A program made the translations under genes and the position numbers. A DNA stretch of 64,000 nucleotides from contig CASGCE010000033.1 of NCBI GenBank assembly GCA_949299935.1, positions 1-64,000 on the forward strand, given 5' to 3'. Below are positions 7,266-63,336 of the stretch, one piece after another. Below the pieces are notes generated by a model. It ran no database searches. It saw only the letters and a list, made by a program, of their open reading frames with translations, and was not told where the DNA came from. This stretch comes from an uncultured bacterium (lineage in GTDB: Bacteria > Cyanobacteriota > Vampirovibrionia > Gastranaerophilales > Gastranaerophilaceae). The number at the start of each line of letters is the position of its first letter. Position 1 is the first letter of the stretch.

Positions 7266-8039
7266 ATGACAAAAAGATTTGGTTTTACTTTGGCAGAAGT
7301 ATTGATTACATTAGGCATTATTGGTGTTGTCGCTGCCATGACAATTCCCACATTGATTTCAAACACAAATGGTGCACAATTTAAGACTGCTTACAAAAAA
7401 GCATTATCTACTTTAAATCAGGCTGTATTGATGAATATCGCTATGGAAGATACTGATTTTTCAACATTGGTTGCTGACACTAATCACCAAACAGGTTCTT
7501 TAGGTGCGATGCTTACGGCTCGTTTGCAGTCTGCAAGTGATATGACATCAAGCTATTTTGAAGGATTAGGTACAACTGTTCCTAAGACTACAGTTGATAT
7601 GGAAGTTATATGTACTGCTGCAAATATTACAGCGGCTGATCAGGCAGTTACAGCTGGTGCTGAAGGTGATGTTCCTTGTGCAGGTCTTACACCACCCGCG
7701 GCTGATGAAGAGCCTACTATTGAATCAGGTAGTGTAAATATTACTTTAGATGAAGGGGATTATTTTGTGTACGCATTAGCTGATGGAACGTATTTTGGTT
7801 TTAATAAAAATGCAGCAAATTGTGCCGCAAAAGGTACTGCCAACTGTATTGGTTTTATTGATGTAAATGGTTCAACAGGCCCTAATACAATTGTTGAATG
7901 TGATAATGGCACAGGAACAGAGGATGAAGCATGTAATGTGGATTCATCTAATATACGTGATATTTATCCGGTATTTTTCCATGGTCAAACAGTCGAACCG
8001 GCTACAGATGCAGCAAGAGCAGTATTATTCGGTAAATAA
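7266..8039 (+). CDS. Type IV prepilin-like protein (short leader)
   Basis: Pilin or pseudopilin of a type IV pilus / type II secretion-like system. It has a 6-residue class III leader (MTKRFG) with cleavage expected before FTLAEVLIT, then the hydrophobic N-terminal helix with Glu at mature position 5. The body (257 residues in all) has a disulfide-ready Cys pattern. It ends with the D-x-NG..GPN signature (IDVNGSTGPN) that recurs in the other prepilins of this window, reminiscent of the calcium-binding C-terminus of major pseudopilins. Unlike four of its relatives here it has no G-run. The AAAGAAAGG ribosome site supports the ATG. It is followed at once by a strong terminator. Confidence 0.9.
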   Translation: MTKRFGFTLAEVLITLGIIGVVAAMTIPTLISNTNGAQFKTAYKKALSTLNQAVLMNIAMEDTDFSTLVADTNHQTGSLGAMLTARLQSASDMTSSYFEGLGTTVPKTTVDMEVICTAANITAADQAVTAGAEGDVPCAGLTPPAADEEPTIESGSVNITLDEGDYFVYALADGTYFGFNKNAANCAAKGTANCIGFIDVNGSTGPNTIVECDNGTGTEDEACNVDSSNIRDIYPVFFHGQTVEPATDAARAVLFGK

Positions 8040-18306: not shown

Positions 18307-19190
18307 ATGGAATTGGCAGAAGGGAATAACGGGGGGGGGCAACTCCTCTAAGCCAACGTAGCCGTTGGATCCGCCCAAATAGAGATTGGTCAAAATTAAC
18401 AAATAATGTTTTAAAAAGAGAAAGAGGCTTTACGTTAGCAGAGGTATTAATAACGCTCGGGATAATCGGTATAGTGGCGGCGATAACAATACCGACAGTC
18501 ACCTCAAAAATACAAGAATTTGTATTAAAAAACCAATTTAAGAAATTTTACAGTACATTTACCCAAGCGATATTTGGTGTGCAGACAAAAGCAGGTCGAC
18601 CTATAAAATGTCATTATTGGAGTAGCAATCCTTATTCAGGTAAATGTACTGCTACTTGTCCTGTAAAAAATGAATATGGTACGTGTATAAGTGGGAATGT
18701 ATGTGCTGAAACAGGGTTATCTATTCCTTCAGATTATGTTGGTCCTATGAGTGAGTGTCGAAAATTTCACGAAGAATTATTTACAAATACGCTAAAAACG
18801 GTAAAAATATGCAAAAACCATGCATATGAACAGGGTTGTTTACCGAAGGATTTTAGAGGTGCAGATATAGTCAATTCGGAAAAAAATCCTAACGGAAACT
18901 ATGATCCGGACGGAATTTTTTCAGATAGTCGAATAAAAAACAATTATCCTGTATTTGTTTTAGCAGATGGGACTTATTTTATAGGCTTTTCTATGTATTT
19001 CCCGGCAATGCCAGTATATACAGTCGATATAAATGGACATAAAGGTCCTAACAAATGGGGCTATGATATATTTTCATTTAGGTTAGATGGCAGTTTTAAC
19101 AATGGCATTTCAAATTTAACCGGTTGGACTTATGCCACGGAAAAGGGCGGTAAAACTTTTACTCAGATGTATGATGAATGTTTTAAATAG
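18307..19190 (+). CDS. Type IV prepilin-like protein with G9 run; start and body out of frame as read
   Basis: A pilin of the GFTLAEVLIT family whose start codon and body are in different frames. ATG 18307 has an AAGGAGG ribosome site 6 nt upstream. Its frame runs through nine Gs (18331-18339) and stops after NGGGQLL. One more G, two fewer, or a -1 ribosomal shift on the run joins it to NGGGATPLSQRS...RERG|FTLAEVLITLG, giving 294 residues with a 41-residue leader. Between run and signal the pilin frame has no stop and no ATG, GTG or TTG; the first usable start is a GTG inside the hydrophobic helix (18474). The body is Cys-rich with a VDINGHKGPN signature. It converges by 8 nt on the ATPase gene. 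Confidence 0.85.
18331..18367 (+). promoter_or_regulatory. G9 contingency/slippery run with downstream hairpin
   Basis: Nine Gs at 18331-18339 inside the prepilin leader, then CAACTCCTCTAAG and a hairpin (CCAACG..CGTTGG, about 18353-18367). A homopolymer followed by a stem is compatible with DNA slippage (phase variation), transcriptional slippage or -1 ribosomal frameshifting. Confidence 0.7.
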
Positions 19191-48061: not shown

Positions 48062-48091
48062 AAAAAGCCGGTTTCAAAAACCGGCTTTTTT
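48062..48091. terminator. Bidirectional terminator
   Basis: GCCGGTTT, short loop, AAACCGGC with A-run and T-run on either side. Ends the ribosomal operon and, on the minus strand, the prepilin gene. Confidence 0.9.
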
Positions 48092-48940
48092 AATCACAAC
48101 GGTGTTTACCGTCCCAGGATAAATCACTGCACTTAAGATAGTCCATGTTTTTATTATAAATCACCCATGCTGCGCAGCCATAACCGTTATTGACAATTGT
48201 GCTATTAAGGTTACAGCCCCTTTCTAACGGGTACAAAGAATCATTTTTCGTACCTATTGGTATAATCATATCTTTATAAATATAAAAATAAAAAATATCT
48301 TTACCTATAGTATTTGGTAAGTTGGTCATTCCGTTTATATCAATATAAAAATCACCGCATATAGTTCTATCATTACAGTTGTAGTTTGAAATCCAGCCAC
48401 CTGAAAGTGTCATTCCGTCTGCAAGATGTATTATTACGGCTACTGTGTTATTGTTTGGCTCGCCTGTTAGATAGTATCTTTTATATTCAAATTTGTTTTC
48501 ATTATATTGCTTAGTTTTTTTCTTATTAATTTTAAGATAGGGACTTATTTTTTCCCAAAATACTAATGCATTGTTAGAAGACTCTATACTGCCTGAATTA
48601 CTTGTAAATCCCCAATTTGTCAGTTCACCGTTGTCGATTTTTGCCATCTGGTAAGCATTATTTATCATTGCATAAGCCTTTGTAAGTCTTGATACAGTTT
48701 GTTTTTCCTGATAATTTGAAATCAATGAAGGAGTAGTCAAAGCAGCAACTATACCGATTATAGCCAAGGTAATCAAGACTTCGGCAAGAGTAAAAGCACG
48801 CCAATATCTAAAACTAAAATTTACTATACCAATATTACATTCATAATGTATAAATTTATTAATAGAGCCAAAACCTAAAGCAAAGAAGCGTTTCGGGGGG
48901 GGGCGACTATCTGAACCGCTTTTGTATCAATCATTTTCAT
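48090..48940 (-). CDS. Type IV prepilin-like protein with C9 run; start and body out of frame as read
   Basis: Prepilin of the same family (FTLAEVLITLAIIG, FYIDINGMTNLPNTIGKDIF near the end). ATG 48940 has AGGAG six bases upstream and reads MKMIDTKAVQIVAPP up to a run of nine Cs on the coding strand (48895-48903); the frame then stops at a TAG seven codons later. One extra C, two fewer, or a -1 shift joins it to PKRFFALGF...RYWRA|FTLAEV, giving 283 residues with a 49-residue leader. No start codon exists in the pilin frame before a TTG inside the signal (48776). The run and its flank are the reverse complement of the G-run element of the other loci. Confidence 0.8.
48895..48909 (+). promoter_or_regulatory. 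G9 run in reverse orientation to its prepilin
   Basis: Plus strand CGGGGGGGGGCGACTA at 48894-48909 is the same core as in the forward loci (CGGGGGGGGGCGACT), but the gene reads through it as C9. It lies within the leader codons of the prepilin at 48090-48940. Confidence 0.7.
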
Positions 48941-49141
48941 ACAATCTCCTTTACATTAATTAAATACTATTTCTCATATATTGTCAAGTTTTGTTGTTAT
49001 ATATAAGTAGTAAAAGCAAACATTATTAACAAGTGAGTTTATTATGTAAACAAATGTTACAAAAAGGATAATATGTGAAATTGAACAATTTTAAAATACT
49101 TTATATATGTAAGAGAGTACACCAATATAAGGAGAGCTATT

Positions 49142-55974: not shown

Positions 55975-56783
55975 ATGAATTTGGTTAAAGGCTTAAACGG
56001 GGGGGGGCGACTCCTCTAAGTAGAAATAGCAAGGGTTTTGACCCAATCAATATTATGTGCTATAATTCAAATATGAAGAATTATAGTTTAGAAAAAGGCT
56101 TTACCTTGGCGGAGGTATTGATAACGATAGGAATAATCGGAGTAGTTGCGGCACTTACGATACCTACGTTAATAAAGAATTATCAGGAAAAAGTTATGGT
56201 ATCGAAGGTAAAGCAGGCGCATTCGCAGTTAATGAATGCGGTACAAATGTATGTGGCGCAGAATAATTGCCAAAATATGTTGTGTTTATTTGATACAAGT
56301 AAGACATCTGATGAAGTGGCGGCAGAATTGACGAAAGTATTGAAAAAATCAAAAGTCTGTAAAAGTGGTGATACTGAAAATGTTTGCAAATATTATGGAG
56401 TGAAAGCTAATACGCCGTTTAAAAAAGACGGTGTTTATGCAACAAGTATCGGTTTAAATAATTTCGGGCGTATTGGGCTGCAAAATGGTATAATTTTTCA
56501 GGTAACTATGCAGTCATCTTGTATAAAAACTCAAGATCGTGTTTATCGTGATGAAAATGGTTTTGAAATTGGCAGAGAAGAAGTTACTGTGGATGCTTGT
56601 GCTTATGTTTATATGGATATTAACAACACACAGGATCCAAACCAGCTGGGAGCGGATTTCTATCAATATGTCGTGAAAAGTAACGGAAACATAGAGCCTG
56701 TTCATAAAAATTTGTTAAATAATGCTCTACTGTACAATAAAATAGAATACACGCCATATAATGTGGGAGAAGTTGTTAAATAA
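55975..56783 (+). CDS. Type IV prepilin-like protein with G9 run; start and body out of frame as read
   Basis: ATG 55975 follows AAAGGAGGAAG and reads MNLVKGLNGGG, then stops after RLL (TAA) because of nine Gs at 55999-56007. One more G, two fewer, or a -1 shift gives NGGGATPLSRNSKGFDP...SLEKG|FTLAEVLITIGIIG, 269 residues with a 42-residue leader. This copy alone has in-frame ATGs after the run (56055, 56073), which could give a 12-20-residue leader without any shift. The body has Cys pairs and a MDINNTQDPNQLGADF signature. From AACG9 to GACCC it is 48/49 identical to the locus at 62579. A terminator follows. Confidence 0.85.
55996..56044 (+). repeat. 49-nt G-run leader repeat, copy A
   Basis: AACG9CGACTCCTCTAAG... 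through GGGTTTTGACCC. Differs from copy B (62579-62627) at one base. The first 26 bases also match the locus at 18328 apart from one base. Confidence 0.9.
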
Positions 56784-62560: not shown

Positions 62561-63336
62561 ATGAATAGCGTAAGTCTTAACGGGGGGGGGCTACTCCTCT
62601 AAGTAGAAATAGCAAGGGTTTTGACCCTGAAGATATTGGGTGTTGTAATTCAAAACACTATTCAAAAAAAGGCTTTACCTTAGCGGAGGTATTGATAACG
62701 ATAGGAATAATCGGTGTAATTGCGGCACTGACAATACCAACCTTGATAAGTAATTATAATAAAAAAGCCACTGCCGTACGTGTAAGAAAGACTTATGCAG
62801 AGCTTGTTCAGGTCATTAAGCTGTCAGAGATTGAAAACGGTTCGATGGACACTTGGGATTTTCCGGAAAGTCGCAGTAAGGATAATACGCGAGCATTTGC
62901 GAGAAAATATATTCTTCCGTATTACAAAAATTGTTTTGAATGCAGTGAGGGTTCAGATTACCGTTGCGGTCAAGCAATCAGCGGGCATGGAGTCAACTAC
63001 GGTCTTAGCAGTAGTGTAGGTATATCTGTTGTTGCAGAGCCAAGCACTTCTAAAAAAATTAATATTACCATTTCTGTACATAATTTCGGTTCCAGAACAC
63101 CCAGACAAGGGCGCGACTGGTTTTATTTTACTATTTCAAATGGTGTTATACAGCCTTTCGGGTGGCGTAAAGGCCTTACAAGAGAAGATATACTGGAGGA
63201 AAAAGTTCTTTATACTTGTAAATCCGTACAAAGAGAAAATCCTAAGGACGGAAGTGCTTTTTATTATGACAGATATGGCTGTACAGCATTATTTGTGCTT
63301 GACAATTGGGAGTTTAAAAACGATTATCCTTGGTAA
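62561..63336 (+). CDS. Type IV prepilin-like protein with G9 run; start and body out of frame as read
   Basis: ATG 62561 (GAGGTGGAAAGC upstream) reads MNSVSLNGGG and stops after LLL because of nine Gs at 62582-62590. One more G, two fewer, or a -1 shift gives NGGGATPLSRNSKGFDPEDIG...SKKG|FTLAEVLITIG, 258 residues with a 38-residue leader. No start codon occurs in the pilin frame between run and signal; the first is a TTG at 62692 inside it. The body is Cys-containing with a QGRDWFYFTI segment matching the family signature. Its signal region is nearly identical in DNA to that at 56098-56160, as if copied. Confidence 0.85.
62579..62627 (+). repeat. 49-nt G-run leader repeat, copy B
   Basis: Same as copy A at 55996-56044 except C-T-A-C-T in place of C-G-A-C-T after the nine Gs. 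Confidence 0.9.

Follow-up and report, generated by a model that had tools for sequence, protein, structure and literature searches.

Strand-locked G tracts in the leaders of a large prepilin repertoire: a probable default-OFF phase-variation switch in a Gastranaerophilales genome

How can the same G-rich element lie in the leaders of type IV prepilin genes that run in opposite directions? The question is raised by a locus within the 64,000-nucleotide stretch of contig C33 analyzed here (the window), which belongs to the host genome G000. The sequence CGGGGGGGGGCGACT is found on the plus strand at 48894-48908, where a type IV prepilin gene encoded on the minus strand has its leader. We could verify this 15-mer, reported in the initial annotation; it is identical to the element at 55999 and differs at one position from those at 18331 and 62582. 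The 64-kb window contains four such tracts, every one on the plus strand, and dinucleotide shuffles of the window produced no match to the 15-mer. Genes of the forward layout (F) run with the G strand and genes of the reverse layout (R) run against it, and both share the class-1 DNA core, G9-CGACTNTCTNAACCGC. The features of the locus and of the prepilins compared with it in the window are as follows.

48895..48903, plus strand: G9 tract, read as C9 in the mRNA; a length of 10 (or 7) is in frame
48904..48919, plus strand: core CGACTATCTGAACCGC, the R-type version of the class-1 DNA core common to the forward copies
48938..48940, minus strand: ATG start codon of the 5' part (MKMIDTKAVQIV)
48946..48950, minus strand: Shine-Dalgarno sequence AGGAG, conserved among R copies
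48959..48987, minus strand: promoter conserved in R copies, with TTGACA at 48987-48982 and the -10 region TATTTAAT at 48966-48959
48801..48894, minus strand: post-tract leader, hypervariable from orthologue to orthologue and mostly deleted in G011
48090..48800, minus strand: prepilin N-terminal motif (AFTLAEVLITL) and mature pilin up to the stop
18307..19190, plus strand: forward (F) copy, with ATG at 18307, G9 at 18331-18339, prepilin, and stop at 19190
55975..56783, plus strand: forward (F) copy, with ATG at 55975, G9 at 55999-56007, and prepilin to the stop
62561..63336, plus strand: forward (F) copy, with ATG at 62561, G9 at 62582-62590, and prepilin to the stop
7266..8039, plus strand: comparison prepilin of the ordinary short-leader type, without a tract

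With C9, the minus-strand ORF starting from the ATG at 48940-48938 reads MKMIDTKAVQIVAPP, exits the pilin frame, and meets an early stop. One additional C (C10) converts the product into MKMIDTKAVQIVAPPPKRFF...RAFTLAEVLITL, an intact prepilin of 283 amino acids bearing the Pfam N_methyl motif. The minus-strand orientation of the gene and the out-of-frame phase that it shares with the forward copies had thus both been read correctly, as C9 is off by one and C10 restores the frame. PF07963 was found in this pilin and in one forward pilin, and a prepilin peptidase (PF01478) is present at G000:C35:147317. The leader at 48801..48894 holds no ATG, GTG, or TTG in the prepilin frame, the first listed start being a TTG at 48776 inside the motif. 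Since there is no start codon between the tract and the pilin motif, reading through the tract is needed to reach the pilin.

The host genome comprises 1.68 Mb, of which about 1.56 Mb was read, and contains about 50 G tracts of at least eight bases, nearly all in prepilin leaders; 44 of the 50 tracts first examined are exactly G9. A search by motif pattern, by which some prepilins are missed, identified 63 prepilin ORFs, of which 45 have a tract; most of the other 18 carry ordinary short leaders. The tract-bearing pilin loci number 51, comprising 43 F and eight R loci with the 48895 gene among the latter, so that the reverse copy is not the singular case it had appeared to be. Absence of any enrichment of G9CGACT beyond chance would have undercut the original observation. 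Instead, HG9CGAC occurs 44 times in G000 and about 242 times across the 16 genomes of one genus of Candidatus Gastranaerophilales, the genus of G000, against 0 occurrences of the reversed control pattern. It was found in 12 of the 16 genomes of the genus and is absent from all 83-84 other relatives searched. We rejected a viral origin, as the forward 22-mer had no match in IMG/VR, and also loss of mismatch repair as the cause of the tract abundance, as MutS1 is intact in essentially all these genomes. The G10 at G000:C9:13592, followed by TACCATTC, precedes a short-leader prepilin by about 270 bases, and its context is unlike the others. At L115 (G010:C127:891-905), G10-CGAC stands just ahead of a frame resembling CMP-KDO synthetase, possibly a phase-variable surface-sugar gene, or by chance.

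The two layouts allowed us to separate the DNA element from the gene around it. On the right-hand side of the tract (DNA frame), the R core reads CGACTATCTGAACCGC or CGACTGCCTTAACCGC, and the F core reads CGACTCCTCTAAGTAG in G000 and CGACACTCTTAACCGC or CGACCCTTTTAACCGC in sister genomes. The left side is variable and the core side conserved in F as in R, with tract-adjacent pairwise identities (left vs core side) of 0.51 vs 0.87 in F and 0.43 vs 0.97 in R. The conserved side corresponds to the leader and the pilin in F, and to the start codon, the Shine-Dalgarno sequence, and the TTGACA promoter in R. Because the core side is conserved in both layouts even though it holds different gene parts, the core looks like a DNA-level feature. 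The initial annotation had suggested a DNA-level signal working in both directions. Its first half holds, as the orientation of the core does not depend on gene direction, and slippage is its best-fitting role. The second half does not, as the element has one fixed orientation to GC skew, 48 of 50 tracts in G000 lying on the strand of positive skew (20-kb local skew). The 48895 copy has the same core and the same skew orientation, and what runs the other way is the gene rather than the tract. In some sister-genome prepilin leaders (e.g., L193, L146, L187, and L132), 100-190 codons past the tract are open in the pilin frame, with the stacked repeat translations HVILNLFQDL, RFFAGAQNDK, CHPEAIAEGSQK, and NPSPLRGEG.

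An inversion that flipped the leader of an ordinary forward copy, the other reading offered for this locus, would account for an identical 15-mer on the opposite gene strand. The comparison across genomes makes it barely credible. In the sister species G011, both flanks of the locus are syntenic and its orientation is unchanged; it carries C10 and an 81% identical pilin, and the post-tract leader is largely absent with the frame left open. In G010, also a sister species, the slot again has synteny on either side and an unchanged orientation, with a different pilin and C9. These two are the sole syntenic loci available, and neither displays the alternative orientation expected of invertible-segment phase variation. 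Moreover, the eight R copies form a coherent family with its own conserved promoter-start block, and the 48895 tract lies on the same strand as the forward copies of the contig. The same-locus tract length differs between related genomes, being C9 in G000 (OFF) and C10 in the syntenic G011 (ON). G015 carries a 77% identical pilin with C9 at an unrelated place, where homology to the 48895 locus extends from the -35 box through the stop codon.

The fixed orientation holds across contigs. Class-1 tracts agree in strand in 48 of 50 contigs with at least two tracts, compared with 17 expected, and genes overall show no strand bias. In the discordant contig G007:C4, the local skew flips along with the tract, and the odd tract in the other, G000:C1, matches its own local skew; for contigs of G009 and G002 with noisy local windows, the whole-contig skew agrees with the tract strand. 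The strand of positive skew, which carries the tracts, is likely the leading strand; S10, rpoC, and atp are encoded opposite to it. A strand lock of all repeats was rejected, as repeats distant from the tracts occur in both orientations, although many of the direct ones are local tandems. A second class of tracts (G11-CAGTAGCTTAACC; Gn-CAG...) is found on the strand opposite to class 1 in all 18 cases sharing a contig, with 26 pattern matches in G006. Class-2 loci (L281, L283, L293, L328, L342, and L389-L418) have a conserved 5' end, ATGGGCGCAAATACGC...TCA, a modal length of G11, and the core CAGTAGCTTAACCTCC. In G014, a genome without class 1, three loci (L285, L296, and L319) show G9 or G10 followed by TAGAAACGCTCTC upstream of prepilins and perhaps represent a third class. 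The strand lock would be compatible either with fork-linked insertion or exchange or with selection acting on how stable the tract is. Locked to opposite strands and preferring different lengths (G9 and G11), the two classes coexist in the same genomes and offer a natural experiment on the influence of replication direction on homopolymer length.

As for tract length, the genus-wide counts of class 1 are 7 for G7, 4 for G8, 242 for G9 (85%), 27 for G10, and 5 for G11 or more. Lengths 7 and 10 outnumber 8 and 11 among the non-G9 tracts by 34:9 (p = 2e-4). Nearly every class-1 locus has its frames joined at length 10 (or 7): the frame is intact at six of the seven G7 loci and at most of those with G10, and disrupted at G8 and G11. 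Among loci with an identifiable start, 123 at G9 need one additional base and 20 at G10 are in frame, a ratio that is no frequency, since all G10 loci were fetched and the G9 loci were sampled. Exceptions are the F copies of G007, for which G9 is the in-frame length and most of which have G10 (three of these G10 copies needing -1), and one in-frame G9 locus in G013. Class 2 peaks at G11 (64% of 22 loci picked by the conserved 5' end), mostly out of frame and needing -1. The usual length is thus one base off from opposite sides in the two classes, which argues against recoding of a single sign and for a switch that is OFF by default. A homopolymer within the coding region sets the frame by its length, a property expected of SSR phase variation.

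From sequence comparison, we consider slipped-strand phase variation the best explanation, with the tract probably serving as a default-OFF switch in the leaders of a large prepilin repertoire; recoding ranks second and internal initiation third. A fixed chromosomal slot would supply the promoter, the Shine-Dalgarno sequence, the ATG, and a few codons, and the G tract would be the junction to an exchangeable body made of the core, the leader, the mature pilin, and the stop. At most loci, the start and pilin frames would be joined only at a tract length of 10 (or 7). At the usual lengths, G9 for class 1 and G11 for class 2, one base is missing or surplus; the gene would be OFF by default, and one slip would turn it ON. 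As the tract sits in the leader that prepilin peptidase would remove, changes of three bases would leave the mature pilin untouched. Switching within a population would presumably be reversible, with no pilin made in the OFF state and the leader removed in the ON state, and might serve as bet-hedging of surface pili against host, phage, or niche change. Weighing against this switch, intact MutS1 means that slippage need not be fast, and the class-1 length spread (85% G9) is far narrower than that of Campylobacter jejuni colony lengths, which are repeated measurements of 28 loci (PMC4965091).

Among the alternatives, programmed -1 ribosomal frameshifting, or +1 transcriptional slippage, on a fixed G9/C9 would make G9 the working state, from which some ribosomes or transcripts reach the pilin frame. 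The dominance of G9 in class 1 with a single phase in both gene orientations, the rarity of G8 and G11, which slippage of that sign would leave out of frame, and the purifying selection on G9 pilins are all in line with it. However, -1 is needed by class 2 at G11 and by three F-type copies in G007 with G10, so that one sign cannot serve all, and we rejected single-sign programmed frameshifting as a general account. Conservation also follows the core side of the DNA, which is downstream in the mRNA in F and upstream in R, unlike a recoding stimulator, and in-frame G10 and G7 alleles exist naturally; overall, we regard recoding as unlikely. Less likely still is internal initiation, in which an internal promoter and a leaderless ATG within the leader make the pilin while the tract and the upstream ORF regulate rather than gate it. 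A TTGAC-N17-TATAAT-N6-ATG arrangement, which may be an internal promoter with a leaderless start and perhaps the ancestral version, is present in 19 of 44 F leaders in G000 (e.g., at 56020-56075 of the window), and an ATG in the pilin frame was seen where leaders were inspected by eye (NSNMKNYS..KGFTLAEVL). Such a route round the tract would count against the switch as well. Conversely, 14 of 46 tract loci, including the 48895 gene, have no in-frame start between the tract and the pilin, which favors the switch; leaders are open for up to 190 codons past the tract, and the conserved promoter, Shine-Dalgarno sequence, and ATG precede the tract in R copies. A further concern is that real G10 tracts may have been entered as G9 by assembly or base calling. 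Short-read length calls of G tracts of at least eight bases can err (PMC4235727, PMC9187656). In five G000 contigs (C4, C30, C31, C32, and C34), a tract lies no more than a few hundred bases from the contig start, as expected if assemblies broke at these repeats. Yet SPAdes-, megahit-, and IDBA-style assemblies (judged by contig names) agree, recorded lengths across the genus assemblies range from G7 to G12 with G7, G8, G10, G11, and G12 all present besides G9, and class 2 is mainly G11, which leaves such an artefact very improbable.

Returning to the slipped-strand switch, the chromosomal slots persist from species to species, but the pilin body past the tract is usually another one. Of the 67 locus pairs whose 5' flanks are homologous, 58 have a different pilin body, and so do 21 of the 26 slots in which both flanks are syntenic. 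A body was counted as different when the blastn alignment covered <60% of the shorter body, by which some very diverged orthologues may be counted, although flank identities of 75-90% make these an unlikely general account. The left-hand homology typically ends 20-50 bases beyond the tract, and the right-hand homology resumes near the stop codon in several pairs. Paralogues within G000 lose their similarity at the stop codon, and two near-identical bodies (96-99%) have conserved downstream flanks and unrelated upstream flanks. Of the tract-bearing pilins, 42 of 46 are intact, and G9 pilins compared with their best matches show dN/dS of 0.04-0.36, indicative of purifying selection. Together, these two observations imply expression often enough for selection to act. 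Around one pilin locus, G000:C1:1-3600 is 97-99% identical to L114 (G011) and L184; other loci of those species are roughly 80-87% identical, and the C1 pilin locus was probably transferred recently.

Tentatively, and with less confidence than in the switch itself, the tract and core might constitute a replication-oriented recombination junction, at which bodies are exchanged between slots in a strand-specific, fork-linked manner by template switching or single-strand annealing. Such a junction would explain why F bodies lie on one strand and R and class-2 bodies on the other, and also why, in the DNA frame, similarity ends at the tract while the core side stays conserved. If true, one short sequence would act both as the ON/OFF switch and as the shuffling joint. 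We found nothing on point in the literature on pili or phase variation in Gastranaerophilales. If the switch is correctly identified, an uncultured animal-gut lineage related to cyanobacteria would hold about 50 pilin switches in 1.7 Mb, a very large repertoire for so small a genome, most of them OFF and one slip from ON, with differing pilin bodies coming to sit in the same slots of the chromosome.

Several known systems resemble parts of this arrangement. IS200/IS605 elements, which target the lagging-strand template (PMC6006769), share the replication-tied orientation and are compared here by orientation bias only; in contrast, the copies described here sit in pilin leaders. Neisseria pilE/pilS with the pilE G4 element also combines recombination of a pilin repertoire with an oriented G-rich element on the 5' side (PMC3547852). 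Whereas Neisseria has one expression locus and silent, promoterless partial copies, the host genome has about 50 mostly full-length loci with their own 5' regions. The element here, a single G9 run followed by C, does not fit a four-run G4 motif, and the tract sits inside the reading frame. The polyG/polyC tracts of Campylobacter jejuni are alike in that an AT-rich genome carries tens of G tracts controlling the frame of surface genes (PMC4965091, PMC8437040). However, they occur mainly in capsule and LOS genes rather than nearly always in prepilin leaders, and they show broad lengths without mismatch repair (PMC4235727), unlike the narrow peak one base from ON in the presence of MutS. The closest precedent for the switch is Bifidobacterium breve, in which pilin genes contain out-of-frame G tracts, replication slippage turns them ON, and the ON state is enriched in mice (PMC9187656). 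In that gut commensal, too, a G tract near the start splits the pilin gene, the reference is out of frame, and slippage restores it. The B. breve genes encode sortase pili in one or two clusters, as opposed to about 50 dispersed type IV prepilins. The passages considered report no shared core, strand lock, or exchange of downstream bodies for B. breve (PMC9187656), a further difference from the present system.
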